A DNA stretch of 64,000 bases from Enchytraeus crypticus (taxonomy: Eukaryota > Annelida > Clitellata > Enchytraeida > Enchytraeidae), in NCBI GenBank assembly GCA_905160935.1, contig CAJHZI010000495.1:1264501-1328500 (forward strand), read 5' to 3'. The notes beneath the pieces are model-generated. The model did no database searches, was not told the origin of the DNA, and worked only from the letters and a program-made list of their open reading frames with translations. Positions 1 through 64,000 of this stretch are shown here, piece by piece (within the stretch, counting starts at the first letter, position 1; every line of letters starts with the position of its first letter). The translations under genes and the position numbers were made by a program.

Positions 1-292
1 ATAATTTTCTTCCCCGTGTTGTGTCCGGGTTGTTTGAAGAATTGACGAACCGGTGACTGCACGTGTCGTAGAAGACGACTAAAACACTAAGATCTATACC
101 AACGTCAGAAAGGGCATTCGGTTGATTAGCGCCTAGGCTCCAGAAATTGCTACAAAAATTTAAACGAATGGAAATCTCAAATAGGGGATTGGCTGGTGAT
201 GTGGTGTAGGACAGAGAGGATATGAGACAGTCTATTTCGTATCCCGACCCTGGTTAAACTGGGATTTTAGAGAAGATAATGAAGATGATTCA
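1..292 (+). repeat. Dispersed repeat family B, copy 1
   Basis: Copy of a dispersed, probably retroposed repeat. In this orientation it runs from a GCACGTGTCGT segment through AAAGGGCATTCGGTTG and a TATCCCGACCCTGGTTAAAC segment to an imperfect GAAGATGATT tail. The same segments recur, mostly on the other strand, near 9303, 14690, 28930, 32908, 41681 and 45820. It lies in the intron upstream of the first visible MTHFD1-like exon. The (ATG)n-type tail suggests a LINE or SINE 3' end; the family is unnamed here. Confidence 0.75.
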
Positions 293-308
293 ATAATATT
301 CTGATTAG

Positions 309-2666
309 ATCGGACACTGCGGCAGAGCTGGAGGTGGTTCGACAGAAGTCGTTGGCTGCTGGAGCATTCGACGCTGTTGTGTGCAATCACTGGGCTAGAG
401 GCGGCGAGGGCGCCTTAGGGTTGGCTGTAGCCGTGGAGAAAGCCGTGCAGCAGCCGAGCGCTTTCAAGTTCCTATATGATCTCAGTGTAATATATTATTA
501 CCTTATTTTGTATTTTATTTATTTAGTATTGCTTCTATCAATTTTTGTCATTGAACGCTTTATTTACAATAATAATTTAAATATCACGTATTTTAGTGAA
601 ACGATCAACCATGTTGATATCTATTACTTGTTATACCACATGTTTAAACCGTTAGGCAATTTAGTCCAGTTTCCATGTAACGAGTCGTGTGAATGTACGA
701 GATTTTACTCTCAGATCAGCGTGGCCGGGAATCGATTCCAAAAGATTTCTATTCACCTCAAGATCTGATTGATTGATTGATTGATTGATGATACAGTTGC
801 CGCTGGAGCAAAAGATCGAGGTGATTGCTAAGGAGATTTATGGAGCCGATGGGATTGAGCTTCTTCCAGAGGCGAAGAAGAGCCTGGAGCTCTACACCAA
901 ACAGGTAGCGTTCTTCTGCTTGTACCAAACAGGTAGCGTTCTTCTGCTTGTACCAAACAGGTAGCGTTCTTCTGCTTGTACCAAACAGGTAGCGTTCTTT
1001 TGCTTGTACCAAACAGGTAGCGTTCTTCTGCTTGTACCAAACAGGTAGCGTTCTTCTGCTTGTACCAAACAGGTAACGTTCTTCTACTTGTACCAAACAG
1101 GTGGCGTTCTTCTGCTTGTACCAAACAGGTAGCATTATTCTGCTTGTACAGTACTTACTAAGCACTTGACTTTTTCAGCTTTTTAAACTATTTTAACAGT
1201 TGTCCGGTAAATATTTGCACAAAATATTACAAATGATTGATTAAGATATTGTTTGATGATTGATTGATATTGAGTGATTGATTATTACTGAAAAATGTTG
1301 GTAACTTATCTACATTAATAACTAGGATCCTCTTGTCTATATCATGTGGTTGATTGAATGATTGATTGATTGATTGATTGATGGTTGTTTAGTCGGTTGG
1401 TTGATGGGTGAGTTAGTTGGTGGATTGATTGATTGAGATTGTTTAATTGATTGATTGATGTAACAGGGTTTTGGTAACCTACCTATATGCATGGCCAAGA
1501 CCCACCTGTCTCTATCACACGACGGTAACCTGAAGGGAGCTCCCACTGGATTTACTCTGCCCATCAGAGACGCTAGAGCGAGCGTTGGCGCCGGGTTCAT
1601 CTACCCTCTCGTCGGATCTGTAAGTAGAACACTTCTTAGTGAAGTTATGTGCTCACCACGTGGCGAGATGGCCGTGATTTATTTGTTTAATTTAGTGACT
1701 TGTGTGTCATGCGAATTAAAAAACCAGCTGCCATCAGATCCTCATATTGTGGCTACTTAAAGCACCCTCTTTGCTGCTTAAAGTACCCTCCTATTTACCT
1801 GTGGCTACTTAAAATACTCTCTTTGCTGCTTAAAATACCCTCTTATTTACCTGTGGCTACTTAAAATACCCTCTTTGCTGCTTAAAATACCCTCCTATTT
1901 ACCTGTGGCTACTTAAAATACTCTCTTTGCTGCTTAAGATACCCTCCTATTTACCTGTGGCTACTTAAAATACTCTCTTTGCTGCTTAAGATACCCTCCT
2001 ATTTACCTATGGCTACTTAAAATACTCTCTTTGCTGCTTAAAATACCCTCCTATTTACCTGTGGCTACTTAAAATACCCTCTTTGCTGCTTAAAATACCC
2101 TCCTATTTACCTGTGGCTACTTAAAATACTCTCTTGGCTGCTTAAGATACCGTCCTATTTACCTGTGGCTACTTAAAAAACCCTCTCATTGACCTGTGGC
2201 TACTTAACAAAATCTTAATTGCTTAGTGTCATGCTTACTATGAAGAGCAACTGGTGGAATGAACAAAACGTTCTTGCTAGGGTTATGTTTTAGATGATAT
2301 TTACCAAAATTTCAACTGCCATTCAGTGGCCTATACAGTTTAATTTTATTTTTTACATTTTATTAATGAATTGCAACAAAATATTAAAGAATGAATATTA
2401 ATATTCTATGTTGATAAGTACAGTACTGGGATTCAAGGGAAGGTAGTGATGATGATTAAGTTCGGTACAGTGTATGTCCAATATACGTGTAATTGTGAGT
2501 TTATTTTTGTTACATTTGTACACTGTTAGTTGGCAGTTATCTGTGTAACTTTAGCATTGTTTAATTTTATTTACAGATGCCAACCATGCCTGGTCTACCA
2601 ACTCGACCTTGTATATACGACATTGACCTCAACCTTGAGAATGGAGAGATCCAAGGATTGTCCTAA
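309..2666 (+). CDS. MTHFD1: C1-tetrahydrofolate synthase, C-terminal exons (formate-THF ligase domain)
   Basis: 3' end of a trifunctional C1-THF synthase (MTHFD1 or mitochondrial MTHFD1L), the enzyme that makes 10-formyl-THF from formate, ATP and THF. Exons: 309-486, 797-904, 1467-1619 and 2577-2666 (stop TAA at 2664). Phases agree and all introns are GT-AG. Visible ligase-family blocks are [20 protein letters not shown], then [19 protein letters not shown], then [18 protein letters not shown], then [20 protein letters not shown], ending [10 protein letters not shown]...DIDL. The N-terminal part, with the nucleotide-binding loop and any dehydrogenase/cyclohydrolase domain, lies left of the window. 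MTHFD1 versus MTHFD1L cannot be decided from the C-terminus. The donor of exon 797-904 is the seed of a 28-bp minisatellite. Confidence 0.93.
592..770 (-). mobile_element. tRNA-like SINE family D, copy 1
   Basis: Shares long stretches with 53045-53230 and partly with 15776-15880 (GATCAACCATGTTGATATCT, TTTACTCTCAGATCAGCGTGG, then a Pol III B-box-like stretch, TCRAATCCC type, on the minus strand, then TTCACCTCA-GATCTG). Here the B box is mutated. It is followed directly by (TTGA)n, which runs into the acceptor of the exon at 797. Calling it a SINE is inference from the B box and dispersed copies. Confidence 0.6.
905..1150 (+). repeat. 28-bp minisatellite carrying splice-donor copies (MTHFD1-like intron)
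   Basis: Nine units at exact 28-bp spacing, starting at 905, 933, 961, 989, 1017, 1045, 1073, 1101 and 1129. The unit starts GTAGCGTTCTTCTGCTTGTA and ends CCAAACAG. The end of exon 797-904 (ACCAAACAG, donor GTAGCG) is identical to the unit boundary, so every unit repeats the exon end and donor. 28 is not a multiple of 3, and a TAG appears within three units, so use of distal donors would shift frame or truncate. Confidence 0.95.
1751..2212. repeat. 52-bp minisatellite
   Basis: About nine units of 52 bp (GGCTACTTAAAATA... starting at 1751, 1803, 1855, 1907, 1959, 2011, 2063, 2115 and 2167), then a partial copy. Each unit holds two related halves (GGCTACTTAAAATACCCTC and TTGCTGCTTAAAATACCCTC). 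It lies in the last visible intron of the MTHFD1-like gene and shows no relation to the exon ends. Confidence 0.9.
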
Positions 2667-4965: not shown

Positions 4966-7900
4966 TTATATGATTAGCCTGTCTTCCATGTCTTCTCTAG
5001 CATTAAACCTATCGGCGCTGGGATAGTTTTCCCTTGGTTTACCGCTGAGATCCTGCTTTGCTTGCAGCAGACGTTCGAGATCCTTCCACATCTTGACCTG
5101 TTTACCACTGCCCTCCTGATTGTCCTTGAGGTTCCTCTGCCTCTCTCTCAAAGTCTTGCCCTGATTCTCTTGCTCCTGTATCTTCTTGCTGTAGACTTCC
5201 CTAGAAAACAACAGTCCAACGAATGTTAAACCCTCAGAATAATCTCGTTTGTGTTAATTTAAAATTTCACTACTTGAAGCTGCACACACTGAGCTATTTT
5301 GGCATGAAATCATAGTTTAGTCTCACTCATTGGCTGGAGCCAGTGGCGATGTTGGTAAGATATTCGACCGTGGATCAGTATGCGCGGGGTTAAAATCCTG
5401 GGCCCGCCCGTCACTGACATCGCTTTCGGGTGAGAAAACTGACGTTAACATTAGCCTTACCTTGCTTACCTTACTCGTTAATGTCAGGAAGAACCATAAT
5501 GCTTATAAAGGACTTCAATATACCTCAGAGATTTCCTCTTCTCGGTGGAGTCGCTGGATTTGTAGGACTTAGACTCGCTGTTGATGGACTCCTGTTGTGT
5601 CTGCAGCATATTGGTCATAAAGGTCATGTAGTGGTAGCGAGACTCCTCTGCTGAAATCTCCTCACGGTACGCTCTCACCTCCTGACCACAACAACAACAA
5701 CAGCAACAACAACATGAATAATATAGCTAATAAAAAGCTAATGTTAGCGTCAGTTTCCTCACTCGAAAGCGATGTCAGTGACGGGAGAGCCTAGGATTTA
5801 CAGATAATACAGTAAGAATAACTTCTTTGTAATTCAATAAGAACTCTTTTTCAGCTTTTACTTAAACGAAGTCTCTGTTTATCTTATTTTTAAGCCCAGG
5901 ACCCTATACAAATCAGGGCATTTGAAGAAAGTTATTATTATTATATAATAATAAATTTACATAAATTACTAAATCGATATATTAAAATTTTGATGACGGC
6001 ATCATTTCTTGGCTAGTATCACACGGGATATCATCCCAATTACAATCATCCAATGATTACTAAGTTTATATGTTCGAATGACTTTGGCTTTGCCATATCT
6101 AAACAGCTCAATTTAGTTTTTGAATGTCTAAATTGCACAGTGAATAAATGCGTTAGCTAACATCATGAATTTTAAATGGCTGTTCCCGAAGTCCTGAGAT
6201 CAATTCCCGGTAGAGCTGATCAGAGAGTAAAATCTCAATCAATAAGCTTTACATCAGTTTGTCAGTGTCCTTATTTATAGGATTTATTACAAAGGAATAG
6301 CTTCTACTCAACCATCATTTATTTTCTTTGACACAAAACTAAGGAAGAAAACTAAGCCTTCAAAATTAAATCAAATCTTCATAACTGTAATGAGAATATA
6401 AAAAGAATTTCAACCTAAAATTTCTGTACTAGTACCGAGAGATTTAACATCTGAGAATGGAGTGTTTACTACAATGAAATGTCTATAGTCTATTGTTATA
6501 CACAAGACACAATGGTGTAACAACATATGTTAGCACAAGTCAGACCTGCTCTAGTGATGAACGATTGCTCTCCAGTCCGGCAATCAGGGAATCATAGGCT
6601 GCCTTTCTCTGATTGTGTTCTATCTCCAAATCCTATCAATCAATCAATTATATAATCAATCAACTAGTAAATCATTCAATAAGTCAATCTTGGTTGCTTA
6701 TTTTATTGTATTTCCTCCTTCCTCTCCATTATAATTAGTAATCGTTGCCTTTGATAGCATACTGATTGCCACCAGCACAGATTCAAGAATAACCTTCCGA
6801 TCCTCTTGGAGATTTTTTTTGCATTCAAAGCTGTCAGTACTTGGTCTTATACGGTGTTCACCCATCCTTTAACTAACCACCCTCTACATAGCTTAACTTT
6901 GTTCATTTACATGCAGCTAAACAAAGTGCGCTAATTCCCACCCCATTTGGTAACTGTGATGACTGCTTGCAGGCCATCCAGACCACATCATAGAAACTCT
7001 ATCTCTGCAGACAGAAACAAACTGCGCTCGAGATTAGCAGTGAAGCTTTTAAAGTGTTCAAAAGCAGGATGGTCGATAGTTGCTTCAAATCCAGACTACC
7101 CCAATCATCGTAACCCTGGCAACAGGAAACTAACGCTACACTCAGAGATTGGATTTGAAAAGCTCCATAGGAAAATTGAGCAATAATAATTGAATGAATG
7201 TAGAACTGGACCTTCTGTCAGAGAGGGCAGAGCTGTTTAATGATTGACGTGTTACTAACCTGAGCCTGTTGCCTGAGAGGGCGGGGCTCTTTAATGATTG
7301 GCGTGAGACTAACCTGAGCCTGTTGCCTGAGGGGGCGGAGCTCTTTAATGATTGGCGAGCGACTAACCTGAGCTTATTGCCTGAGAGCGCGGAACTCTTT
7401 AATGATTGGCGTGAGACTAACCGGAGCATGTTGCCTGAGAGGGCAGAGTTATTTAATGATTAGCGTGAGACTAACCGGAGCATGTTGCCTGAGAGGGCAG
7501 AGCTATTTAATGATTGGCGTGAGACTAACCTGAGCCTGTTGCCTAAGTGGGCGGGGCTCTTCAATGATTGGCGTGAGACTAACCTGAACCTGTTACCTGA
7601 GAGAGCGGGGCTCTTTAATGATTGGCGTGAGACTAACCTGAACCTGTTACCTGAGAGGGCGGAGCTCTTTGATGATTGACGTAAGACTAACCTGAGCCTG
7701 TTGCCTAAGTGGATGGAGCTCTTTAATGATTGGCGTGAGACTAACATGAGCCTGTTGCCTGAGAGGGGGAGCTTTTTTAATGATTGGCGTGAGACTAACC
7801 TGAGCCTGTTGCCTAAGTGGGCGTAGCTCTTTAATTATTGACGTGGGACTAACCTGAGCCTGTTGCCTGAGTGGGCGGAGCTCTTTGATGACTGGCGCAA

Positions 7901-10900
7901 GACTCTCTTTCTTGCTGGCGATACGATTGTTGAGCTGCTGAACCATATGTGAGATGTCCTCCAGTGTCTTCCCCTTCAGCTCGTCTTTCTCGCTCTTCAG
8001 AGCTGACACTGACTCCAGGGCGTCTTGTGTATCACGGAATCCTGCCACACCTTTCTTTCTCTCCTGTGCGGACTGTATAAATAAGTAAAACAATTATTGT
8101 CGTGCGAATTAATTATAAAACTTCGGTTTCACTAAAACAGTAATTTACTGTTACCTTAATCTTTGTGACGGTAGCTCGAGTGTGTCGAGTCGTCTTGAAG
8201 AGAAGCCTTGTGCTTTGAACATTGACGTTAAACACACTATAACCTATTGTTGAGCGAATTAGTTCAATTACTGCGCAATTACCAGTTTAACTACCAGTAA
8301 TTTACTGTTACATTAATCTTTGTAACGGTAGCTGGAGTGTGTCGAGTCGTCTTGAAGTGAAGCCTTGTGCTTCTGAACCTTGACGTTAATACACTACAGT
8401 CTACCTACCACTGTCGTGCGGAATTTTAAATGTGGCTTAAATTTCTAAATCAAAAGTAAAATTTATATAAAGTACAGCCTTTCATTGGTAAATGTATTAA
8501 TCAAATAATAGAATATCAATTGCGATATTTCAACTAAAAACAATATAGGAGCAATGTACCACACCTCTTTTAGAAAACCCACACCTTATTGTGTCCCTGA
8601 TAATAACAATAGGATTTTTTCATTTCATAAATATTACACTAATGATGTTCTGCCTTACTAAGTGATTTATATGCCCAGGATTATGGTAGTAATAAAATCA
8701 CAATAAAATTAAAATATTAAACTTAAACACTTACATTTAACCAAAACATTACAATAGGCCTACATTAAATAATTAAATGAAATTAAAACAGTATTAATAA
8801 TAATGAAATGCTAACAGAGTATCACAATAAAATCTTAACTTACATATTTTAAATTCCACAAAATAGATTTACATGTATATTTAAACATTTTTAACTTACC
8901 AAACTGTCGTCAATTTTTCCATATTTCATCTTCAGAATTTCTTCAGTTCTCACCAGCACTCCTGCTTCAGCGCGTAGCTCAGCTAAATCCTGCCTCTTCT
9001 CCTTGTACACTGTGTTCTTAGACCTCAACTTGTTCACGTATCTCTTAAACTGTATCAGTAAAAAAAAATCAGCTAACTCCTGCCTCTTCTCCTGTGTTCT
9101 AAGTGCTCTTAGATCTAAGTTTACTCGCATTTCTCGTAAATTTATACACCAGACTCTTGATCAGAATCATTTTAATTATTGAGAACACTATCACAGTAGC
9201 AGAGTTTTGATTGGTGCAACAAGCGGCTAACGGATTAACTAATTCACTATGGTGATGTCAACTGACTGAATGACTGCCTTACTCACTTACTCATAGTTAA
9301 CTCATCATCATCACTATCATCCTCCCTTGAATTCCACTTTAACCAGGGTCGGGATACAAATAGACTGTCTCAAATCCTCTCTGTCCTGCACCACACCACC
9401 AGCCAATCCCCTACTTGAGACTTTCCTGATAGCTGACTGATTGATTTATATATATATATTGATTGATTGAGAGCGATCACATCCTAACCTCGTCACCTCT
9501 CAGTATTTCCTCTCCTTCCCCGTGCTTTACTTTCTTTCTCTTCTCCTCGTAGAGAGCCTCTGCTTTAGCTACCTCGTCCCTTGTCTCTCGCAGCAGTTCT
9601 GCTGCTGACTCCTTCTTACGATGAATTATCGACGCCTGCAAATAATAAACTCACATCAATATCCAAATTCAATCAATCATTTTTATAGGTGCAGTTTCAA
9701 GTGTTCTCAAGTGTTCAATATAAGTTTTTTAAATTCTTAAATGTTCAGTACACTTAACGGCTTAATGTGAGTTCCTTTCCTAACAGAGCTTCTGCCGTGT
9801 AATGCCGGGTCTAGATTTTACAGACATGAAATGCTGTATAGCTACGTTTAACGGCTGTTTCTGTACACAAGTGATGACGTTTTGCTTTTCAGACCTACGC
9901 GCTATCAACACAGCCATCAACCAGTTTTTTTCTTCAGTCAATTGAAGTTAATATACAGATATTCATATAATAAAGATCACAAATATTAGTCACTTCTTAT
10001 TCTCTACAGTTATTTCATATAATAATCTGCAACAATTGAAATATCAGTGAATTATGCTGCATTCATCACACATGAAATTGTTAAAAGAACAAATGGTTTA
10101 CACTCTAGTCCCATCAACTATATATATTCTAAACATAGAAATTATGCTAAATTGTTAACACCATAATTCTACATTTCAAATATTGTTTAAAAAGTAGGCT
10201 GATTAATTGTGCCTCTGCAGTAGAATACGGTGAATACGCACCTGTTGTCTGAATAGAGACAACTTATCATCTCCAGGATCAGACCTCATCATCTTCTTCT
10301 CTATCAACTGATTCAATTCAGCATTCATGTCTCGGATCTGATCATACACAGCGCTTGATGTAGTCTTTATACATGATCAACTTACCATAAAGCTTCAGTA
10401 ATAGCATGAAGTAAAAGCCTCAGATTCTATTCAGTTTTATTATAATATATAAAATTAAAATGGATTTTAAATAATCTGAGAACTAAGAATTTTAAAACGT
10501 TCATCATATTATTTGCAAGTCATACGTCTTTAATTATTACATATATGGCAATTTTTGTTAATTTATAAGATGGCAGATAGTTTAAGAATAACTAAATTCC
10601 AATTTTAATTCTAAATTTTACAATCTAAATTTTAATTCTTTAGCTAAACTCTAGATCTAAATTCAATAATATAAATTCTAATTCTTTAGATAAACTCTAG
10701 AGCTAACTTCTAAATTCTAAATTCTGAGGATAAATAAATTCTGATGAAGTCAAACCGGAACCAACTTTTCTGTTGATGGCGTCCAGGTCGGACTGTCCCA
10801 TGGCGGGCTCAGATATGAGAGACTGCAGCTCCATGACGTGCTTCCTACGAGAGTCCAGTTCACTTGGAAGCTTTTCCTTCACGAGGTACGTGTTGACTCG

Positions 10901-13115
10901 CACTTCCTCCTCCAGGTTCTGTACGAGACCTGAGACATTGGCAAAATCAGCGTATGTCGCACTCATTCAAACATCGTTTAGCAACTTCATCAACAGTATT
11001 TAGACGAGCTAAACCACCATTGACTTTGACGTAGGGTACTCTTGCACAATGTGATGATGCATAGTTTGGCGTGGAGCACCACACAGTAACACTAAATTAA
11101 CTAAATAGCTACCATAACTGACTGAAATCACTTTCCAGTTATTTTAATGAATAAATATGCAAAATTTTAGTTAATAGGCATAAAATTTATTTAAATACCT
11201 GCTGGAGTGGTTCCTATCCCAGCTTGTTTAGCGTCCTTGATCTGCTGTTGTAGACGTTGCGTTCTTTGATTAAGCTGAATCAACTGTAAACAGTTGGAAA
11301 ACAGTAAAATATAAGTAAATCAGTTCATGCATACTGGCCTATCAATGGTAAACTCTGTAGTAAAAGTTTAATAGATGTAACATCAGCTATGCATACTGGC
11401 CTATCAATGATAAACTCAAAAGCCTATTAGATGTACTGCAGTCCCTATACTAAATAAAATCTTGAATTATCCATACAATAATCCGCATATCAATTTGTCA
11501 AGGCTCGATTCGATATATATTTTGAGTGTATTTGTATTTGTAATTGTATTTCTAGTAAAGTATTTCATAATACTGCAGGTTAAGTAAAGTTTTTAAGTAA
11601 ATCATCGACTGGTCGATGGACTACAAATTAGTTCGAATAACTGAACCCTTCGAATTGCTCTCAATTCGTCTATTCTTGAGATACTTTTAGTTAAGATTTA
11701 AAGTATTGAGTTTTATTTAAGTGAGATCCTAGGCGGTAGCTAAGCTAGGGCCAGTGACCAATGAGGGCATGCCTAAACAGGAAGTGAGAGAGATCCAAGA
11801 TGGAAGAGTGACAACACGGACGTAAAACGTGACAAGTTGAAGAGATCTAGGAGATTTTAAGTATCTCAAGAATAGACGAATTGAGAGCAATTCGAAGGGT
11901 TCAGTTATTCGAACTAATTTGTAGTCCATCGACCAGTCGATGAGAAAGGAGTGATTTTTTTAGAAGATCGAAGAGAGAAGAGAGTTCCATCGAAATATTC
12001 TAACCTAGGGATTATATTAGAAGGAATCCTAGTAGACGAATAGTCGAGAGGAAACTAGAGTAAAGTCTAGGAATTTATGCTAGAGTGCGTATTAGTAATT
12101 TGTACGTCAAAAGTAATCCTATGTAATATAAAGTACTTAATTTTGCGATAATTAAAGTGAACTATAATTAGATAGAAAGTATAATTTTAAGTTATATGTA
12201 ATTCGCTTACACGTGTTATTTGAAATCATTTTAATTTTCGTTTTACCATATATCCGTGCATTATTTTATTTCTTTTCATATTAAATTAATATTTAATTTA
12301 ATACAGTCATTGAAGTTATCAATCACTTAGTAAGATACCTAGATTCAGTCAAATCGAGGACAGGTAAAGATTCCAAAATAATAATTAGAGGCATATTATT
12401 AGGAATTTAAATCCTGGACCATTTGATGTCAGGTCCTCATTTTACCTCAGATTAAAAATAGTAGAATCAGGTTCCTTGACACAATTGATTTCTAAAGTAA
12501 TATTATCACAATGGAAGAGCTGGAAATTAAATGATTAAAGAGATATTCTTTTAAATAATTTGTCACTTAATCAGATCTCTATGAATACACAAAATGTTAC
12601 ACACAGTTATTGACCTGACTAATTCCATATAGAAATCGATTAAATATAATTGACCTTAAAAATTAATAATTTAAAGTTATAAACTTAAAACCTTATAATT
12701 ATGACTGTAATCGGCTGCTTCTCAGATTTATCAAAACGCAACCACGGTTCAACATATATTTAAATGTTGATAAGCAGCAACATATATAACCAAATCATAA
12801 TATATAATTTCAAAACAGCCGTAAATATTTAACTAAACTTCAAATAATTTTCGAGACTGCAGAAAATAACGAACTTGAACAATTTATAATAATACACCAC
12901 AGCAGTCAAGACTGCTGCCAATGTCTGGCTATATTTCTGCATCATATGGAAGCTAGAGTTATAGTTTCTACAGACTGTTTGATACCCTGTTTTCTGGGAA
13001 TTTTTTAAATTTATTTCTTTTAAATGTTTATTTCTATTTGTATTTGTCAGTGATTTCGTGTTGATGCTGAAATAAACACAAATCTCTCTCTCGCTCTCTC
13101 TCTCTTTCTCTCTCC

Positions 13116-13146
<31 letters not shown>

Positions 13147-18290: not shown

Positions 18291-18299
18291 ATTTATCAA

Positions 18300-20560: not shown

Positions 20561-20572
20561 AAGTTATTAATT

Positions 20573-20978: not shown

Positions 20979-20979
20979 T

Positions 20980-22319: not shown

Positions 22320-22373
<54 letters not shown>

Positions 22374-37128: not shown

Positions 37129-37194
<66 letters not shown>

Positions 37195-41679: not shown

Positions 41680-41721
<42 letters not shown>

Positions 41722-48211: not shown

Positions 48212-48299
<88 letters not shown>

Positions 48300-51200: not shown

Positions 51201-54066
51201 CCACCGAGCCGCAGACTGAAAACCTAATAACATCCAGTGTGACGTGCAGACTCAGGAAGCCGTCGTAATTGTAACAGTAGCGCAGCAGTTTCAGGTAATT
51301 GTCAAATCGGCACAATATCGAGTTATACTTTATAATTAAGTACATTGTATAGAAATAATTGTGTAGTCATCAATATACTAAATATATAATAGATTGGATG
51401 GTAAACGATTCCACAAAACTGATCAATAAACCTCCACACAGAGCAATACAAATAAAACAAAAAGATCAATTTTTATTTTATAGCGGCTTCAATGCCTTCC
51501 TAATTAATTATCGGCAGATCACAGAACCTAGGAAAATAAACCTATACTTCAGCTGACCTCTTACTAAGCTTCACATGGCCAAGACATAAAATTCTACCTA
51601 TACATTAAATTTAGATTTTTATCTTGTAATTTTAGATGATGATGAAGATGATTTAGAATTTTAACGATTCATTATATTTAGATTTTGAAGTCACACCTTG
51701 CAGCCAGTATATCAGGCAGTTTTGGTGTGCTGGGAGAAATCTTGACTTCAGTTTTATCAAAAATCATTTCAGTCGCCTCAACCTTCACGACGTAAGTGCC
51801 AGCCTTCATACCGTCCAACAGATATACACCCGTGTCTGTAGTAACAGCCTGCTTCTCACCAACACTCACCCTGGCGTTAGCTATGCCTGCACCCTGTAAA
51901 AAAAAGCTAATGTTAACGTCAGTTTCCTCACTCGAAATGATGTCTGTGATGGGAGAGCCCAGGATTTGAACCCAGCACATACTGTGATCGAATAGTGGTC
52001 GCGGTCGAATAGCATCCGCGGTCGAATAAATAACATTAATAATAAATAGCAAAAAATAGAAATAGCATCTGCGGTCGAATAAATAACATAATAATAAATA
52101 GCAAATAATAGAAATAGCAACCGTGGTAGAATAAATAACATAACAATAAATAACAAATAATAGAAATAGCATCCGCGTTCGAACAGCTTACCGACATAGC
52201 CACTGTTGGAATAAAAATATATGTTCTACAACCATTTTTCCATACCATTTATAGAATCTGCATTATTCAACTCTTATGAATAAGTGCAGTTTTCAGAGGC
52301 TCTATTTTTGAGTTTTGAAAACATATTATGAAAGTACATCAACAATACGTATAAAGGTGAAGCTTATCTAATTTTGTTAAATGTAAACATAATATTAAAA
52401 AACAGTTCTACTTACTCCTTTTGTTGCTCGAACGACTCCAGTTACTGTGAATCCAGCCACTTGAAATGCATCCTACAATCAATCAAAACAAAAACTGATG
52501 CTGAAGTTCTAAGCTAATTAAATATTGAAGCATAATATACAAGTATCAACTGAACTGTGAGTCAAGAATCTGCTGTCAACTATAGTCAGCTATATAAAAG
52601 CAGCGCCACTAACAATATGCTATAGAGTTCTGACTCTAAAAACTTTGGACATAAAATGTGATAGCTCTCACTGATTTTTTAAAGTAATTTATAGTTGGAA
52701 AACATCCCCTTCAACCAAATTGCGTATAAGGTTGTAGTTCTTGGGACCGGCTTCTTGGATAATGAATTTGCACAATTTTTAGATCATTTTGTTATTTTTT
52801 TCTCGCATTCTTAGCCTTGGTTGCATTGAGCTTCATGTTGTCATTGACTACAGTAGCACTCTATGAGCGGTGTTGTTGTTGTTATGCAAACTGCTATGCT
52901 AACAGAGTATTTAATATATATAGAAGCATAAAGTGCGGCTTACCTTGAGGCCAACAGAAGAATGCTCCACTTCAACTTCTAGCCTGTTTGGTACTACGTC
53001 GAACTTAATGTTTTCTCCCTTGTAGAACGGCACCTAAAGTAAACAAGCATTATAGCGAAATGATCAACCATGTTGATATCTATCACTATTAATATCACGT
53101 GTTTCAACCGTCTGGCAATTTAGACCATTTTCCATGCAACCAGTCCAGTGCTTGTCCGAAATTTTACTCTCAGATCAGCGTGGCTGGGATTCGAACCCAT
53201 GAGGGTTCAATTCACCTCAGGATCTGTCATTTAAAATTTCTTAAAATAAAATAACCAACCAAGGCATTAAATTAAAGCACTAAATGGACAGTCCATTCTT
53301 AAACAACGCTAAGCCCGGTTATGAAAGCGACGAGAGGTGGATGTAACAGCATAGTCATAAGAACGTCACAACTACAGTGACACGCCCACAACCTCCTGAG
53401 CAACTAATTACACAATACACGCAGATCAGTATATCATGATGAAATGATTGATTGATACTAAGCAGTCTAATACATTTCATCAGTGAATATTGTTTGTAAA
53501 TGCATATGTAAAGATACATTACCCCTCGCATCATAGAAACACACTGATAATTGCCTGAAAGACTTATTTGATTTAATTATATCAATTGAACAGAAACCTA
53601 AGAATGTAACAGCATCCAACTCTAACGAAACTCTGTATTCATTGTCAAATCAGATAAATAAAATGTTTACTTAATTGATCAATAGATAGACTAAATGATT
53701 GATTGATGGGGTGATTGATCGATTGATACTGACCAGCACATATTTGCCACATGGCACAGCCTTGAAGACAAATCTGCCACTAGGATCAGATTTGACCTGA
53801 CACACGGCCTCATAGCCTTCCACCCCCTCCACGTCCTTCCTGACGGGCTTATCACACTGCGGCAAAGCCTGGGTCATCAGCACAACAACAACAGTTAGAA
53901 TACTAGCAATAATAATAATAATAATCTTCTGTAACTAATAGCAATAATAGTAGTATTAACAGTAATAATAGCAGTAATAATAATAACAATAATAATATTA
54001 GTAATATTAGTAATAATAGTAGTAATAATAATAGTTGTAATAATAGTTGTAATAATAGTAGTAATA

Positions 54067-54116
<50 letters not shown>

Positions 54117-56633
54117 GATTTGCAAAGATTTATTGCAGTCTGCTTCAACAATTCTTTTAAGCCAATTTATGACCTCGAGTAGCCGGCCGGCGATTCAGCA
54201 CTTATCGCTTGAATCTTTTTTATCAAACCCCAATATAATGATAAAGGATAAAATAAAAAAAAATAATAATAATAATATTAATACTAATAATAATAATAAT
54301 ACCTCGGATTCCTTACACCCAGGGTAAAAAATAACAAAAATAATTTTTGAAAACAATATAGCATTGAGGCAGCATTGAGGTAGTACTGAGATAGCAATGA
54401 GGTAGCATTGAGACAGCACCAGTGAGATAGCAATGAGGTAGTATTCTTGCCTATTCGTAACTATAATTCTACTAGATGTGCCACAGTATGTAGGGATGTG
54501 TCGTTTACCCATTTTAGTTTCTCTTTAGAGAGCAGAATGAAGTTAACTCCAGTCACAGGCTCTCCGTCACTATACACCTGACCCTGAGCAGAGTCAATCA
54601 AAATCAGTCAGTCAACGGTATAGCTGCAAAAACAACTAATCAGAAATCAATAACAAAGTCAATCAATATTGTTAGAGAAAGTCTGTCCCGCTGAGGCAGC
54701 ATTGAAAGATTCACGAATAGAAATATTACAAATACGTAAATAATAAATACTTAAATATTTAGAAAAAACTTAAATATTAAATATTTAAGAGCTCTAGAAA
54801 TGGCTAAGCTATCCAGAGAGAGAAGATGCGATGGTATAGACAGTGCACACAGACCGTGACATCATATCCTGCCACAGTGAAAGCGTTGCCAATGTTGATG
54901 CTCTCTCTCGAAACCTCTGCTGTAGCTTCATTCTGTTCAGAGAAACATTTGCAACAATAATTTATAATATTACATGTTTAGACTTCTCAAATGTTATATA
55001 ATAGTACTGTATTATCAAATGTTATATAATAGTACTGTATTATCAAATGTTATATAATAGTACTGTATTATCAAATGTTATCTAAAAGTACTGCATTATC
55101 TTGCTAGGGTCGAACAAAGTTTACGTTAGTCAACAATTAATTTTGAGCATTTAGGTGCAATTTAAGCTCAGTTTATAGATTTTTTCAAGGTTCTATACAT
55201 CATGCTTGTTCCACATATCATTATCATCTAAAACTATATTGGAATGTTTTAATTTCAATCAAAGAAAAATAAAACCACGCATAGTCAATATTAACTAAAA
55301 AGCATGGAACAGTTTAAGGTCTATTCATATCCCGAATCTAGTTATGCTAGGATTCAAGGGAAGATGATGAAGGTCAATATTACAACAGATAAAAACAGTA
55401 ACAGTCTTCTAACATACTCATCAAAATGATTGATAGATGTCTATATTGTAGCCAAATTAAATGAAGACAATTAAAATTTTACACCACTCTAGAACTATTG
55501 AATACATCAGAAGAGTTAAATAGTGAAAGATACGGGTTTTGCATTAAGTAAGACATCACTGACATGATTTTGTAGCAAACTAAAATGTACTAAAAACTGA
55601 TACCTCTCCTTTCACTTACACCACGTGAATGTAAATCAAACATTATTTCAAGAAATTAATTACCTAATTAAATTAATTAAAAATTAATTACATTATTTTT
55701 AATTAAAATATATTCATATGAATTCAAGAGTAATTTAGACAACGACAAAGAAACCTTGTCGAGAAGCAGTGTAGCGTGCGATGCAGACAGAACGTATTTT
55801 CCAGGCATAACTTTCTCGAATGAGAAGAGTCCTCCAGCCCTACTGCTAGTCTGCATGAGGGGTTCAGTGGAACCAGCCCTCAACAGCTTTACCTCAACAC
55901 CAGCAGGGCCCGTCATGTGCCCTTTGCTAATCACCTGCAAACAATTGAAACATCTTATAAGACCAACCGTAGTACTGCAATCTAATTAAAAGAGATTATT
56001 TATATACTATTAACAAAATACTTATATAAAAGTAATTATCGACAAACTTAACATTATATAATTATTTATATTTCATAACAGATACGTCACAATAAAAACA
56101 GAGCCGCCAACCCAAGCATCCAGTATACAATTATCTAAGGGTGATTCTCCAATGACTTCTACAGTAACTACATTAGATGAGCCCAGTGCTGAGAAAAAAC
56201 AATATTAGTTTAATCTTTTCTTTTTAAGAAAAACAAATATAATACTATAATAACATATGTAGTAATATACTATATAATAATATTAAATAGTAATATACTA
56301 TAAATATATAACTTTAATACAAATAAAAAAGCAAAGCACTGACAGTTCCGCTGATGGAGAACCCAGCAAACAGGAAGTTGATGTCAGCGGAACGGCTGCA
56401 GAGGTCGTCCTCTCCGTTGATTGACAGCTCAACTGACTCTGGCTCTGCAGCAGATATCAAAGTGCAGAAATAACAAATGTTTAGCATTGAATATTCAATA
56501 TCTGAATGCCATATTCGAGGAAAATGAGAATCGATTCCCGCAGAAAATGCAAATGTTAGAGATGCACCTAATGCAGAAACACAGTAAGGCAGTTTGGAAT
56601 CCAAATGGTATATATAAATTAAAGGATTCAGTT

Positions 56634-56675
<42 letters not shown>

Positions 56676-57737
56676 AAGTTACTTGACCGGCCAATCACAT
56701 GACAATCGGCGTAGTGTAAATAAAACCACAGATGCGCATAAGCTGTCAGCCTTCAACGTTATAGTTACAATTTTAAGGAATATTTTTGTCAGATCAACAA
56801 TAACTGAATACAAGCGCTTACGAAATTTCCAGCCGAACTGTGACTCGACTCTGAGGACGTAGTCGCCCTTATCGTAGACAGGCACCATGTAGTAGCCACT
56901 GTTAGGAGCGCAGCTTGTCTCGTACTTCAGTATACCTGACTTCGTTACCAGCTTCACCTGCAGCAAAATCAATCAGTTAGTTTGTTATATAGAGTTAGCA
57001 TTTATAGTTCATGGATATAGATTAATCTACTCTATGAGCCAACATGATATTCTTGCTTGCATTGCGTGGTTCACTTAGTTGGAGATCAGAGTTTAACACT
57101 CTGTTCTAAGTATAAGAGAGAGAGAGCTTTACATATTGATTATGCCATTATTACTATCGATATTTTATGGAACTCAAACATATCTAGAGGATATTATCTA
57201 GAGAGGAACTTATATAGGTTAATAAAACTACACTGGGACCTGCAGATGCAGAACTTTAGGATTTTTCACGTTCTATTCAAATGAAAAAGAAATATTGTTA
57301 GAAATTTTGTGCAGAAATATTGCTAACTGTGAGCGATTTGCAAATTTTCTTTTCTCACAGTGATGTAAAATTTTAGGAATTCTTTGGGTGTAGAGGATGT
57401 ATATATGCAATGTCTAGAATTTTAATAGTTTTAAGAAAAAGAGATATTGCTCAATTACAATTGATGATAGAAATAAATTTTATGCAATCCTTATCTCACA
57501 ATTCCCGCTGATCAATTATTTGTGAAGGAGAAATGGTAAATTCCAATATGCCTAATTTATTTATAAAATTTTTTGTAATATATCATGTACAGTGAACATA
57601 AAATTTACCTGCACGTGTGATATGTCCAACTCAACGTCAGATTTAATAAATCCACCGCAGCCAATCACATCATTACACAAAGCAGACTGAAGTGAAAGAA
57701 GCAAACCCAGAAACGAAACAAAGATGAAATTATTCAT
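33733..57737 (-). CDS. NOMO1: Nodal modulator (NOMO), complete, 30 exons
   Basis: ER membrane protein of the NOMO-nicalin-TMEM147 complex at the translocon: large lumenal chain of beta-sandwich repeats, one C-terminal membrane span. Exons, 5' to 3' on the minus strand: 57737-57609, 56957-56822, 56444-56344, 55934-55755, 54932-54855, 54583-54509, 53868-53734, 53033-52944, 52472-52416, 51893-51697, 51223-51049, 50573-50432, 49984-49917, 49233-49170, 47702-47578, 47435-47290, 46547-46449, 45793-45686, 44533-44451, 43469-43310, 42372-42246, 41675-41559, 40755-40628, 40176-40035, 38574-38491, 37865-37755, 37411-37310, 35304-35185, 34610-34518, 33912-33733. Sum 3552 nt, 1183 codons plus stop (human about 1222). 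Signal peptide [20 protein letters not shown]; diagnostic [50 protein letters not shown]; membrane segment [17 protein letters not shown] about 1105-1121; basic end [10 protein letters not shown]. The 47578/47435 junction is the only uncertain one. Confidence 0.95.
33895..34100 (-). repeat. ~106-bp tandem duplication spanning the acceptor of the last NOMO exon
   Basis: TATGATCTGAATAGAGACAA at 33907 recurs as TATGATCTGAATAGAGATAA at 34013, and TACGAATATTATCTGAATAA recurs as TACGAATATTTTCTGAGTAA. The upstream copy keeps CTATTCAG|ATCATACC and a degraded exon start, so a second candidate acceptor lies 106 bp upstream of the real one. Confidence 0.85.
34140..34385 (-). repeat. Dispersed repeat family E, copy 1
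   Basis: Reverse complement of a segment shared with 48470-48710: CCACCTCAGAAGC on this plus strand (GCTTCTGAGGTGGTTTC on the other), ATTAACTCGTTAATTGATGG, TATGGAGCGTGAAAAGCAG. Nature unknown. Confidence 0.6.
34685..34745 (+). mobile_element. LINE 3'-end fragment, (TTGAT)n-tailed subfamily
   Basis: GACGACCCTGACATTGCCGT, GACGAGAAACCCGACGTTAT, then ATCATTATTGATTGA. Confidence 0.7.
34851..34985 (+). mobile_element. Divergent tRNA-like SINE (family A relative)
   Basis: GGGCTGAGCCATTAGCATTT (A-box-like), AAGGTTCAAATTCAACGC (B-box-like), TCCCGTCACAGAAATGCC, GGAAACTAACGTTTAAC. Confidence 0.6.
35490..36322 (+). mobile_element. LINE 3' end with (TC)n tail
   Basis: The 151-codon ORF at 35502-35957 reads [60 protein letters not shown], the C-terminal arm of a non-LTR element ORF2. 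About 340 bp of 3' UTR follow, ending AATTAAACATTGAG and (TC)n. The RT core is missing. In a NOMO intron, antisense. Not a host gene. Confidence 0.8.
36868..36996 (-). mobile_element. SINE family A copy
   Basis: CTAATGTGAACGTCAGTTTC, CTCGAAAGCGATGTCAGGGA, TGAACCCCGCACATACTGAT, CATCGCCACTGGCTCCAGCC; full head to tail, sense to NOMO. Confidence 0.9.
37130..37270. repeat. (AT)n-rich microsatellite
   Basis: ATATAT runs with TTATAGT/TTATATT interruptions, about 40 bp past the donor of NOMO exon 37411-37310. Confidence 0.9.
37391..37600 (-). repeat. 43-bp minisatellite duplicating a NOMO splice acceptor
   Basis: Five CCTAAAC sites at 37411, 37454, 37497, 37540 and 37583, spacing exactly 43. On the transcript strand each unit reads ...TTTAG|GTTCACCTATATAGACTG or a one-base variant, so every unit repeats the 3' splice site plus the first codons of exon 37411-37310. 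Confidence 0.93.
38020..38165. repeat. 22-bp tandem repeat
   Basis: About six units of AAGTAGACATATTAACTCAT plus AT. Intronic in NOMO, no link to an exon edge. Confidence 0.85.
38588..38800 (-). mobile_element. LINE 3' UTR copy (family C)
   Basis: AATAAAGGTTTAATGTCTG, GATGATGTCAGGGCGTCC, CACTACAGATCAATTCACCC, AGGTCCTAAACGAAAGCCAG, CTACGGTGGGAAAAGGTAAA: very close to 59448-59670. It starts 14 bp from NOMO exon 38574-38491, upstream of its acceptor, and is in sense with NOMO. Confidence 0.88.
39345..39995. repeat. 24-bp minisatellite
   Basis: About 27 units of CAATACCCTCGTGAATACCT plus CCCC, 8 codons long, so long ORFs appear on both strands (YLPQYPRE repeats on plus, GEVFTRVL repeats on minus). 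On the NOMO strand each unit contains GAGGTATTC, a donor-like motif, and the array starts about 40 bp after the real donor of exon 40176-40035. Not a gene. Confidence 0.92.
40853..40985 (+). mobile_element. SINE family A, best-preserved copy
   Basis: GGTGGCTGGAGCCAGTGGCA (A-box region), GCGGATCAGTATGTGCG, GGTTCAAATCCTGGGCTCGC (perfect B-box core GGTTCAAATCC), CCGTCACTGACATCG, GAGTGAGGAAACTGACGTTA, ending CTTAGCTTTTTACC. Antisense to NOMO. A 3' fragment on the other strand is at 41055-41083. Confidence 0.92.
41681..41790 (-). repeat. Dispersed repeat family B, with (ATC)n
   Basis: (ATC)n then CCCCTTAATCCCAGTTTAGC, TAGGGTCGGGATACGAATAA, CTTCACCAATTGAC. It abuts the acceptor side of NOMO exon 41675-41559; sense to NOMO. 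Confidence 0.85.
42085..42260 (-). repeat. ~50-bp tandem duplications of a NOMO exon end and donor
   Basis: The exon 42372-42246 end (transcript ...GATAACTGTCGAG|GTGTGTGTCATATGAC) recurs three times downstream with junction equivalents at 42199, 42145 and 42093 (spacing 47, 54, 52). Copies read GATAGCTGTCAAG|GTTTGTG, GATAACTGTCGAG|GTTTGTG and GATAACTGTCTAA|GTTTGTG. Confidence 0.9.
42433..42562 (-). mobile_element. SINE family A copy
   Basis: AAAAAGCTAATGTTAACGTC, CTCGAAAGCGATGTCAGTGA, GGATTTGAACTCCGCACATA, GCGGTCGAATATCTTACCGA. Sense to NOMO. Confidence 0.9.
43495..43700 (-). mobile_element. LINE 3' UTR copy, (TTGAT)n-tailed subfamily, at a NOMO acceptor
   Basis: CAACAATCAATCAATAAGAA, TTTAACGTCCAGTTCCTCGC, CATAAGGCAATGTCAGGGAC, then a 3' UTR with GACCTATGGCGGAAAGAG. 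Its tail ends about 25 bp from the acceptor of exon 43469-43310, sense orientation, so the retroposon tail forms the 3' splice-site surroundings. Confidence 0.85.
44085..44305. repeat. 21-bp tandem repeat
   Basis: About ten units of TATTTACAGTTATTACACTAA, 7 codons, hence the artefactual ORF with NIYSYYT repeats. NOMO intron. Confidence 0.93.
44551..44915. repeat. (CAAT)n/CCTAATCAACTAAT higher-order repeat
   Basis: AATCAATCAATCCTAATCAA and variants in about 14 units of 21-26 bp. On the NOMO strand this is (TTGA)n-rich and ends about 20 bp before the acceptor of exon 44533-44451. Confidence 0.88.
44971..45093 (-). mobile_element. Divergent SINE (family A relative)
   Basis: AGCCAAGTTTAACGTCAGTT, GACAGCAAGTTAGTGATGGG, CACTGGTTTTGAACTC. 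Closest to the copy at 3150. Confidence 0.6.
45820..46185 (-). repeat. Dispersed repeat family B, long copy with (ATC)n tail
   Basis: About 170 bp of (ATC/GTC)n, then CCTTGAATCCCAGTTTAACT, GAGCCTAGGCGCTCACCAAC, CGAATGCCCTTTCTGACATT, GCTTTGTCACCTTTTACGAC, CTTCAGCAACACGGAC. It makes a His-rich artefactual ORF. It follows the acceptor side of NOMO exon 45793-45686. Confidence 0.88.
46228..46365 (-). mobile_element. SINE family A copy
   Basis: GCTAAGGTTAACGTCAGTTT, CTCGAAAGCAATGTCAGTGA, GAGCCTAGGATTTGAACCCC, CTTCTGGCTCCAGCC. Confidence 0.88.
47939..48052 (+). mobile_element. SINE family A copy, head truncated
   Basis: ATGTCGGTATATTCTACCGC, GGATCAGTATGTGCGGGGTT, CAAATCCTGTGCTCGCCCGT, CACTGACATCACTTTCAAGT, GAAAACTGACGTTAAGATTA. 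Confidence 0.85.
48213..48300. repeat. (AT)n microsatellite
   Basis: About 85 bp of uninterrupted ATATAT. Confidence 0.95.
48470..48710 (+). repeat. Dispersed repeat family E, copy 2
   Basis: Homologous to the reverse complement of 34140-34385: CTCGCTCCATAAGAGCACTC, GTTAATCCCTTCACAGAG, TATGTAGCCTACAGCTTGGG, GCTTCTGAGGTGGTTTCCC. Confidence 0.6.
50106..50378. mobile_element. Two degraded SINE (family A-like) pieces
   Basis: 50110-50150 on plus (GGCTGAAGCCAGTGGCAATG, TCAGTAAGATATTCGATAAG) and 50285-50378 on minus (CATTGACAGGGAGATCACTG, GATTTGAACCC). Confidence 0.6.
50545..50672 (-). repeat. ~46-bp tandem duplications of a NOMO acceptor
   Basis: Exon start at 50573 (plus strand GCCAGTTCAAC|CTGTGAAATAAAC) recurs at 50619 (GCCAGTTCAACCTGTGAAAT) and, degraded, at about 50664 (CAGTTCAGACTGTGAAAAA). 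GCCTTTATCAGAGGTTCAGC likewise recurs as GCCTTTATCAGTGGTCAAGC. Each copy carries TTTCACAG|GTTGAACTGG or a variant. Confidence 0.9.
51899..52206 (-). mobile_element. SINE family A copy with internal tandem expansion
   Basis: Tail part AAAAAAGCTAATGTTAACGT through GGATTTGAACCCAGCACATA, then about four units of 55-65 bp each starting GCATCCGCGGTCGAATAAAT or a variant and carrying AAATAGCAAATAATAGAAAT, then the head remnant CTTACCGACATAGCCACTG. The GCGGTCGAATA stretch of the tRNA-like head has been amplified. Confidence 0.85.
53045..53232 (-). mobile_element. tRNA-like SINE family D, best copy
   Basis: GATCAACCATGTTGATATCT, CAATTTAGACCATTTTCCAT, TTTACTCTCAGATCAGCGTG, GGGATTCGAACCCATGAGGG (minus-strand B box GGGTTCGAATCCC). 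It begins just beyond the acceptor of NOMO exon 53033-52944. Confidence 0.75.
53915..54118. repeat. (AAT)n/(AGTAAT)n microsatellite
   Basis: About 200 bp of AATAATAATAGTAATAAT variants in the NOMO intron before exon 53868-53734; source of Leu- or Ile-rich artefactual ORFs. Confidence 0.93.
54985..55098. repeat. ~28-bp tandem repeat
   Basis: About four units of ATAGTACTGTATTATCAAAT plus GTTATATA. NOMO intron. Confidence 0.85.
55318..55376 (+). repeat. Dispersed repeat family B, 3' fragment
   Basis: GGTCTATTCATATCCCGAAT, GCTAGGATTCAAGGGAAGAT, GATGAAG. Similar stubs occur at 2427-2458 and 44010-44042. Confidence 0.65.
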
Positions 57738-60968: not shown

Positions 60969-61250
60969 CTGGTTCGCCTGTTTTCCCCTATTCGTAAATA
61001 TACGAAAAAAATTTATTCTGTAGGCCTACTTAAATTTCCTTAAAATTTTGGACGGACAACTGTGACTACGATTTGTAAGTTACTGGTTTTTTGAATTGCT
61101 TAATATGATTACGGGATTTCAGTCTTTATTTAACATATTATAATGGACCATACTGAAAAACCATGAAAAGCTAATTTATAGATTTTAATTTTGGAGCTAC
61201 TGATTTAGTATTTTACACATTTTCGTTATTGTAGAAAAATCAACAATACA

Positions 61251-64000
61251 ATGGGGATATTATATAGACATTGTCGGTTGTATGGCTTATTGGTTGGATT
61301 GCTGATTGCAAGCTTCTCCGTGGATGGAATTTTCTGTGCGACTCCTGAGGAGAATTTCAGTGAAGAGATGATTATGAAAGAGCTGAGTGATGGAAACATG
61401 TACTCACATTTTCAGTTCACAACTTTTTTGAATTCATCAGTGAATAGTGAAGACTGTAAGTTGATTGGTTCATTGTGTTGAGTGTTAGTTTAATTGTGTA
61501 TTAGTGTTTTAGAGTTGGTTTATAAGCATAAATTTACAGCTTATTTTTTATACATATAATATGCAGAAACTGTATTTTATAAATATATATATATATAAAA
61601 TATTTTTTCGTTCGCACTGTTAAACTTTATACTTTTTGGGGTTACCTATTCATTTTTGCAATCAAGATGAGCATTAAGGTATGAAAAGATTGTGCTACTA
61701 TGTAACAAATGTCCAAGTCCTTGTGTTAATTAATTTATTGTCTATGCTGCAATGTGCAGTAGATTGCTGTCAGTATGATGCTATCAGTAGATTGCAATCA
61801 GTATGATGCTATCAGTAGATTGCTATTATAAATCACTACCAATAGATTTATATCAGTTTGATTGCTATCAGTAGATTGCTATCAGTAGATTGTTATCAGT
61901 AGATCGTTATCACGAGATTGCTATCAGTGGATTGCTACCAGTAGATTGTTATCAATAGATTGCTAGATAATATCAATAGATTGCTACCAGTAGATTACTA
62001 TCAGTCAGTTGCTATCAGTAGACTGCTGTCAGTAGATTGCTACCACTAGATTGCTACCAGTAGATTGCTATCACTAGATTGCTATCATTAGATTGCCACC
62101 AGTAGATTGTTATCACTAGATTGCTATCATGAGATTGTTACCAGTAGATTGTTATCCCTAGATTGCTATCATGAGATTGCTATCAGTAGATTGTTATCAC
62201 TAGATTTTTATCATTAGATTGCTACCAGTAGATTGTTATCACTAGATTGCTACCAGTAGATTGCTATCAGTAGATTGTTATCAGTAGATTGTTGTCATTA
62301 GATTGCTATCAGTAGATTGCTATCACTAGATTGCTAGATAATATATTGTCATCATATTGTCGATGTTGCGCTGCATTGCTTCTGTAGTTCATCATTTGAA
62401 GACATTCCCGAAGGCTATTGGAGAGATTCTGCACAAGTTTAGAGTACAGGAGCTTCACTTGAGCCTGACTCAGGGCTACTGGAGACACGACAAGTGGGGC
62501 TACCCATTGATCGATGCCCCGCCCGGGGCAGAGCTCTGGAGCTGGTTTAAACACAGCACGGGCAAGTATGATATCAAGCAAATTCATTAGATATCATAGC
62601 TGTTATTTTTTAAAAAGCTAATGTTAACGTCAGTTTCCTTACTCGAAAGCGATGTCAGTGACGGATGAACCCAGGATTTGAACCCTGCACATACTGATCC
62701 GCCGTCGAGTATCTTACCGACATCGTCACTGGCTCCAGCCAGTGTTTCTTGTACTACCTCGCTTAGCTGAGGCTTCTTTGTTGGTATTCCTTATATTTTG
62801 TTGGAGGAGTTTTGCTAACACTTATTAATTATGTTTTCCATGACAGTGTAATCTCTCTGTCTATTATGCCTAGTCCAGCGTGAATGGTAATTTTCTTTCC
62901 TTTTTCTGTTTTCTGTTTCCATCATTTGCTGTACATACAATAACATTTCTTTTCAAGCTATGTATAACTTCTCTATTGCTATTTAATACTCGACATCTTT
63001 AAACTAAACAAGTACTTATTGTTGATGTTTATGCTTCTTGATGTTATGACGTATTATGCAGGTATTAATGCTTATAGATGAATATTAATTACATTCTAAC
63101 CTTTGTTGCTGTAATTTAGCTAAGACATATAATATATGGGCCTAATCTATCCCTTGCATTACCATTCTGACGTCAAGGATGATGTCTCTGACATCATCCT
63201 TGTATGAGGAAATGGACTTTAAACCTTTATTATTATTATTCTCATTACATATATATATTTTTAAGTCTTATTCCTTAAGTTTCCCTTCCTGATCTGTTAT
63301 AAATCTTGATATTGTGATGGATGAGGCTTGTACTCTAATGGTTGTTGTTACAGTGTGGATGACATGTGGAACGGCCTAACCCAATCACTTGCCGGTCAGT
63401 TCTGTACGTCCATTAACTTCATGGACAGCAAGTCCGTCATCACTCCTCGCTGGAGTTTTCGTCCCGCTGGTATTGTTACCGCTGACTACAACAAGTGGTT
63501 TTCTCAGCACATCAGGTACGCACTGTTGTCTCGTGAGGTCGTGTGCACCGAGAATCTGACGCCTTGGAAGAAACTTCTGCCTTGTGGATCACAGGTACTG
63601 AATACTAGGTACTGAGTACTAGGTACTGAATACTTGGTACTGAATACTTGGTACTGAGTAATAATAGGTACTAATAGGTAATAAATACTAGGTACTTCTT
63701 ACTAGGTACAGTATACTAGGTACAGTATACTAGGTACAGTATATTAGCAATTAACCCTTTGCTGTTCAAAGCACTTTGATATTTTAAGAGCACTATGTAA
63801 ATGATTGTATTAACATATTGATTGCACTTAAATTGTATTCAGTAGTTCAGTTGCTTGGTTGAAGTTAATTTATTCACTTTTAATATCTCACTGTTTGAAG
63901 GCAAATGTTTTTTGTATTTTGCAGTCAGGTTTGGCAACACTGTTGAATGCTGTTCAACTATACAGTACAGCCTATCATTCTCTTGGCGTTCATTTCAGGC
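61251..64000 (+). CDS. PIGT: GPI transamidase component PIG-T, N-terminal exons (runs off window)
   Basis: ER-membrane subunit of the GPI-anchor transamidase (with GPI8/PIGK, GPAA1, PIGS, PIGU), which attaches GPI to C-terminal signals. Exons: 61251-61455, 62388-62565, 63354-63594, 63925 to beyond 64000; phases join and introns are GT-AG. About 233 codons of roughly 580 are visible. MGILYRHCRLYGLLVGLLIA begins a signal sequence with a hydrophobic core to about residue 27. Family blocks: FPKAIGEILHKFRVQELHLS, LTQGYWRHDKWG, PPGAELWSWF, GQFCTSINFMDS, REVVCTENLTPWKKLLPCGS (the Cys of VVC is expected to be the intersubunit disulfide residue). ATG 61251 chosen because the signal peptide follows directly. 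Divergent to NOMO. Confidence 0.95.
61745..62345 (+). repeat. ~14-bp minisatellite in PIGT intron 1
   Basis: Roughly 40 units of AGTAGATTGCTATC with many single-base variants (CACTAGATTGTTATC, CATTAGATTGCTACC), ending 43 bp before exon 2. Not derived from the adjacent exon edges. Confidence 0.93.
62613..62742 (-). mobile_element. SINE family A copy
   Basis: AAAAAGCTAATGTTAACGTC, CTCGAAAGCGATGTCAGTGA, GGATTTGAACCCTGCACATA, CATCGTCACTGGCTCCAGCC; antisense to PIGT. Confidence 0.92.
63171..63243 (+). mobile_element. LINE 3'-end fragment (family C)
   Basis: GATGATGTCTCTGACATCAT, CCTTGTATGAGGAAATGGAC, TTTAAACCTTTATTATTATT. Confidence 0.83.
63591..63748 (+). repeat. 14-bp minisatellite starting at a PIGT splice donor
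   Basis: Exon 63354-63594 ends ACAG|GTACTGAATACT and the intron continues AGGTACTGAGTACT, AGGTACTGAATACT, TGGTACTGAATACT, decaying to AGGTACAGTATACT. Each early unit repeats the donor-like AGGTACTG. Confidence 0.88.

Follow-up and report, generated by a model that had tools for sequence, protein, structure and literature searches.

Tandem duplications at exon–intron junctions in four genes of an annelid

Within 64 kb of annelid DNA, hereafter called the window, eight exon–intron junctions in four genes (MTHFD1-like, IFT81, NOMO and PIGT) are duplicated, four of them donors and four acceptors. The account we favour, and consider reasonably probable, is that these structures are neutral minisatellites of the type described as ‘mirages’ in amphioxus, seeded on exon edges. 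They would have begun as ordinary short tandem duplications, which are common in introns here, and some of the duplicated segments would have happened to hold an exon edge, as the anatomy of the arrays indicates. In the first duplication a piece of exon and the splice site attached to it would have been copied into the intron, and slippage or unequal exchange may later have added copies, as copy number and sequence variation suggest. The exon-proximal copy, which encodes residues shared with relatives and is presumably the one spliced, would be under selection as the splice site for the conserved protein, and the distal copies would be intronic and drifting. Since a working site is always left, arrays of this kind would survive, and no function would be required of them.

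Gene models and anatomy of the duplicated junctions

The exons of IFT81 and NOMO were determined by spliced alignment, in which proteins of relatives were aligned against the window with a custom dynamic-programming script, and those of MTHFD1-like and PIGT were placed by hand:

309..2666 (+): MTHFD1-like gene, formate-THF ligase domain, last four exons; stop codon at 2664–2666; start of the first exon placed by hand
4969..17046 (−): IFT81 gene, 14 coding exons by spliced alignment
33742..57737 (−): NOMO gene, 30 coding exons by spliced alignment
61251..64000 (+): PIGT gene, first four exons placed by hand; continues past the end of the window

Two of the three reference proteins used for IFT81 agree fully and the third (Branchiostoma) moves the borders of the first intron; among the four references used for NOMO one moves the acceptor at 53868 by 12 bases and another aligned only from residue 24. 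The 3′ end of MTHFD1-like matched formate-tetrahydrofolate ligase in the PDB (E 3.5e-41), the 5′ end of PIGT matched PIG-T (E 6.7e-61), and the hand-placed exons of both genes are translated without internal stops. Altogether the four genes provide 97 junctions in the 64-kb window.

An amphioxus origin of the window, as suggested by the mirage literature, was ruled out by the annelid placement of both IFT81 and NOMO in trees calculated from 26 and 21 chosen rows, respectively, taken from the match lists. The IFT81 sequence of the window grouped with Capitella, Paralvinella and two further rows in a five-row set (support 99/99), which Dimorphilus joined in an enclosing eight-row set (99/98), and the NOMO sequence fell into a seven-row set with Capitella, Lamellibrachia and four further rows (100/99). 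Owenia stood outside the annelid sets holding the window sequence in both trees, and the best identity within the trees was 61% for IFT81 and 46% for NOMO. The top-scoring named matches of the IFT81 protein were Owenia, Capitella, the nemertean Lineus and Paralvinella, followed by a hemichordate; Branchiostoma floridae, with 53% identity, held rank 79 of 120 listed matches.

The preliminary description had placed duplications at eight junctions of these genes, and all eight were recovered at the same coordinates, with the exon edges confirmed by spliced alignment (IFT81, NOMO) or by hand placement (MTHFD1-like, PIGT):

896..1149 (+): MTHFD1-like donor array (TRF), 28-bp unit × 9.1, each unit of 9 exonic and 19 intronic bases; authentic donor after 904
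7221..7904 (−): IFT81 donor array (TRF), 54-bp unit × 12.7, 12 aligned copies; exon edge 7854
8979..9140 (−): IFT81 acceptor duplication, first 71 exon bases from 9049 downwards; intronic copy at about 9069–9140
33903..34097 (−): NOMO last-exon acceptor duplication (TRF), 106–110-bp unit × 1.8; exon edge 33912
37394..37591 (−): NOMO acceptor array (TRF), 43-bp unit × 4.6, 25 intronic and 18 exonic bases; exon edge 37411
42083..42266 (−): NOMO donor array (TRF), about 52-bp unit × 3.6, 21 exonic bases; exon edge 42246
50545..50672 (−): NOMO acceptor array (TRF), 46-bp unit × 2.8, 17 intronic and 29 exonic bases; exon edge 50573
63593..63737 (+): PIGT donor array (TRF), 14-bp unit × 10.4; donor after 63594

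Arrays detected by TRF cross seven of the eight junctions, exactly one junction per array, and reach into the exon by 9, 51, 21 and 2 bases at the donors MTHFD1-like 904, IFT81 7854, NOMO 42246 and PIGT 63594 and by 29, 18 and 10 bases at the NOMO acceptors 50573, 37411 and 33912. In the register used, the IFT81 donor unit consists of 44 exonic and 10 intronic bases, and at NOMO 33912 the junction CTATTCAG|ATCATACCAT is present in both copies. No TRF locus was obtained at IFT81 9049, where a single diverged and gapped copy was found whose score of 57 compares with at most 29 among 1000 shuffles and which starts at the junction, with no clear intronic part. Hence the description of the splice site as lying inside the duplicated unit is apt for most sites and weak for two, namely PIGT with its two exonic bases and IFT81 9049.

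The exonic part of the six units in IFT81 and NOMO is coding sequence that aligns with relatives (eight for IFT81, seven for NOMO), well in most units, moderately at NOMO 50573 and partially at NOMO 33912. At none of these six sites did any of the eight IFT81 and seven NOMO relatives show a unit-sized insertion; at NOMO 42246 and 33912 the relatives differ in length by one or two residues. Since the exonic parts of the units are common to the relatives, exon edges were copied into introns and exons were not invaded by repeats.

Two further explanations touch on this anatomy. Arrays of this shape might be footprints of intron gain through tandem duplication of an exon segment bearing AG|GT, the Rogers model as it is outlined for Drosophila (PMC2891723) and for globins of amphioxus (PMC3087553), and exon sequence beside AG|GT or AG|G is indeed contained in the units. 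However, as each of the seven arrays overlaps a single junction, none covers both ends of its intron, and we consider this origin very improbable. Even less credit is given to assembly artefacts: the copies differ from one another (TRF matches between copies amount to 95% in the MTHFD1-like and 87% in the IFT81 array), the units range from 14 to 110 bp, exon edges and reading frames are intact, and haplotype or collapse errors would not be expected to yield nine to 12 diverged short copies.

Splice motifs and reading frames of the copies

The splice motif is widely retained among the copies: CAG|GT occurs in all nine at MTHFD1-like and TTTAG|G in all five at NOMO 37411, and at NOMO 42246 GT is found in 4/4 and AG|GT in 3/4 copies. 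At IFT81 7854 GT stands in 12/12 copies and CAG|GTTAGT in nine of them, and the motif changes less than the rest of the unit (7% of equally long segments are as conserved), which speaks weakly against plain neutrality. Conservation of the motif was assessed in three arrays, and in the other two it was no more conserved than the remainder of the unit (82% of segments as conserved at MTHFD1-like, 35% at NOMO 37411).

The copies might be functional as alternative splice sites for protein variants, above all in IFT81, the unit of which, with 54 bp, is a multiple of three. Besides the retention of the donor motif in most copies, this is favoured by copies 2–4 of IFT81 (3/11 alternatives), which are open in frame and would add 18, 36 or 54 residues. 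However, the other eight of the 11 alternatives reach a stop, stops being present from copy 5 onward, and no insertion at IFT81 7854 was found in any of eight relatives (0/8). In the 11 intronic copies minority bases are spread over codon positions 1, 2 and 3 as 17, 13 and 19; this count shows no third-position bias and thus no sign of coding constraint, and most distal IFT81 copies do not look coding. At the remaining six array junctions the copies tested likewise lead to stops or, in one case, to a frameshift: use of the distal copies of MTHFD1-like results in a stop in 8/8 cases, 12–40 codons on, as it does for 10/10 candidate copies at PIGT, 3/3 alternatives at NOMO 42246, 4/4 at NOMO 37411 and the one alternative checked at NOMO 50573, and with the alternative copy at NOMO 33912 (1/1) the last exon is read in another frame. 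To judge from the reading frames, in-frame exon extension could arise from IFT81 alone among the eight sites, and a functional role of the arrays appears improbable to us. The notion that only the exon-proximal copy fits the conserved protein was therefore borne out at six of the seven array junctions, as far as alternatives were tested there, and has to be given up for IFT81, where copies 2–4 stay open.

Frequency of arrays at junctions

TRF returned 202 rows, which were merged into 125 loci; 73 of these were removed as microsatellite-like (best period <10, or a period ≤9 scoring 40% of the best) and 52 were retained. None of the removed loci crosses a junction, and 11 of them score at least 100. 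For the null each array was collapsed to one unit and placed at random. Among arrays within genes that score at least 100, seven of 20 cross a junction, against 1.8–2.0 expected with random seeds in genes (P 0.0009–0.002), 2.4 when dispersed and simple repeats were excluded from the available space (P 0.005) and 2.8 when arrays were confined to their own intron (P 0.012). For the whole window the count is 7/21 (1.2–1.3 expected, P about 1e-4); for genic arrays it is 5/14 at a score of at least 200 (1.3–1.4 expected, P 0.005–0.009) and 7/37–38 at a score of at least 35 (2.3–3.4 expected, P 0.006–0.042 depending on the null). If at least eight exonic bases were demanded, PIGT was lost and 6/20 arrays remained (1.6–2.0 expected, P 0.003–0.009), and with at least five the figures were 6/20 and 1.8–2.2 (P 0.005–0.015). 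All these P values are nominal, as they stem from a single window that was flagged for the very pattern tested. Arrays are thus moderately enriched at junctions, a modest excess of about two- to fourfold that depends on the null; intronic arrays without a junction are commoner and make up 13 of the 20 strong genic arrays.

Such an excess would be expected if a mutational process, e.g., one connected with transcription, R-loops or AG|GT itself, favoured duplication at junctions and seeded arrays there more than elsewhere in introns. Donors as well as acceptors are hit, across four genes, and the seven of 20 strong genic arrays exceed all expectations of 1.8–2.8, which, together with the nearness of other arrays to exon ends, speaks against plain neutrality and hints at a bias. 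Wholly intronic arrays lie nearer to exon ends than random positions, with medians of 58.5–63 against 108–115 bases at score cut-offs of 50–100 (P 0.019–0.041) and of 95 against 138 bases at a cut-off of 35 (P 0.034); when mean log distance is used instead, P is 0.03–0.15. On the other hand, the window was singled out because the pattern had been noticed, the excess shrinks when weak arrays are included, and 73 of 125 loci, none of them crossing a junction, were dropped before the count. Moreover, in a scan by position (score at least 22) duplicated sequence was found at 6/97 junctions, compared with 262/1500 intronic and 33/1500 intergenic control positions, so that intron interiors are more often duplicated; the intronic count is high because long intronic arrays score once per copy, and the scan is unfair as a test of enrichment without collapsing of arrays, but taken as it is, it speaks against an excess. 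We regard a process directed at junctions as unlikely.

The excess could be due to chance together with how the window was chosen, to arrays at junctions staying recognisable for longer, or to a genuine local bias. As to the second, it is a possible idea that arrays tied to a conserved copy can be recognised for longer than arrays in which every copy drifts. Of the two views offered in the preliminary description, tolerance of duplications through an intact exon-proximal site fits the data, and for a process favouring junctions there is an excess of about two- to fourfold, which depends on the null and comes from one post hoc window. Neutral seeding on exon edges is retained as the best account.

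Two arrays near junctions were left uncounted:

44553..44918 (−): 22-bp × 16.5 array, separated by 19 bases from the NOMO acceptor 44533
61757..62336 (+): 14-bp × 42 array, 51 bases upstream of a PIGT acceptor

A junction origin was considered for the near-junction arrays at 13374, 39347, 54987 and 61757 and rejected, as the similarity of unit to junction is weak; only for the unit at 61757 was its own junction, the PIGT acceptor, the best of all 97, at a low score of 16. By its sequence the array at 61757–62336 is perhaps an old, drifted boundary array. The array at 39347–39990 (24 bp × 27) lies 44 bases past a NOMO donor, and its unit is a multiple of three with long open stretches in several frames. 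The stop codon of MTHFD1-like stands at the start of a 21-bp × 2.7 repeat (2663–2719) that enters the 3′ UTR, so that the edge of coding region and UTR is duplicated too. At 40854–41000 lies a dispersed element, up to about 147 bp long and by eye SINE-like; its eight copies are all intronic and occur in both orientations, the seven others being 84–92% identical to this one, with a start or end at 5331, 36994, 42561, 46362, 47941, 51984 and 62741. Scans of the window with Rfam and for tRNAs gave no matches. Frames with a reverse transcriptase domain (Pfam RVT_1) at 18526–19848 (−) and 59651–61012 (−) are probably non-LTR retrotransposons.

Significance and relation to known systems

In the openly licensed papers searched here, recurrent minisatellites that duplicate exon boundaries are on record for amphioxus only, and no report of recurrent junction arrays in an annelid or any other non-cephalochordate was met with among them; eight such arrays in 64 kb of annelid DNA suggest that they are no oddity of cephalochordates. 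An annelid lineage with junction-biased duplication independent of amphioxus, in which about one junction in 12 (8/97) is affected and alternative splice sites and in-frame IFT81 extensions are constantly supplied far beyond the cephalochordates, seems rather doubtful to us; preferential seeding of duplications at junctions is testable in annelid genomes. The arrays also raise the question of how the spliceosome singles out the copy next to the exon when as many as a dozen nearly identical ones are present, which is sharpest at acceptors, where equally good copies stand upstream. Through such repeats a gene of the worm comes to hold one splice site in as many as 12 copies, and they may feed slow intron evolution.

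A minisatellite with multiple splice donors is said to have been described in a 1995 study in Nucleic Acids Research (23:1854) for the human interferon-induced 6-16 transcript, reportedly of the gene IFI6/G1P3. Like the donor arrays of the window it supplies many donor sites; to our knowledge it concerns a single gene, compared with four genes here. Among annelids, the earthworm metallothionein locus shares the possession of intronic minisatellites, and copies of its exon 4 are absent from the final transcript (PMC12783039); as a junction case it was rejected, since the part of that paper drawn on here does not describe the repeats as extending across splice junctions. The gain of introns from tandemly duplicated proto-splice sites in Drosophila, as presented in PMC2891723, resembles the situation in the window in that exon sequence with AG|GY is tandemly duplicated, but there the duplication makes the intron, whereas the arrays of the window stand at one end of existing introns.

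The closest counterparts are the amphioxus mirages, reported for Adh3, the globins BflGb6 and BflGb9, TnC, PGBD5 and others (PMC3087553; PMC3902484, which added the TnC and PGBD5 cases). In the parts of both papers used here they are characterised as minisatellite-like tandem duplications across donor or acceptor junctions with units of 10–160 bp, and the structures in Adh3, the globins and TnC are reported as not disturbing splicing. Junction-crossing arrays and many copies with AG/GT are, as far as these accounts go, common to both systems, as presumably is an authentic exon-proximal copy, so that the earlier impression that no system of such a kind had been described does not hold and the kind of structure is already known. 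The amphioxus mirages are further documented in these papers by results on RT-PCR, haplotypes and somatic instability, whereas the arrays of the window are known from one genomic sequence alone; and the former belong to cephalochordates, whereas the latter occur in an annelid, with eight in 64 kb, distributed over four genes.
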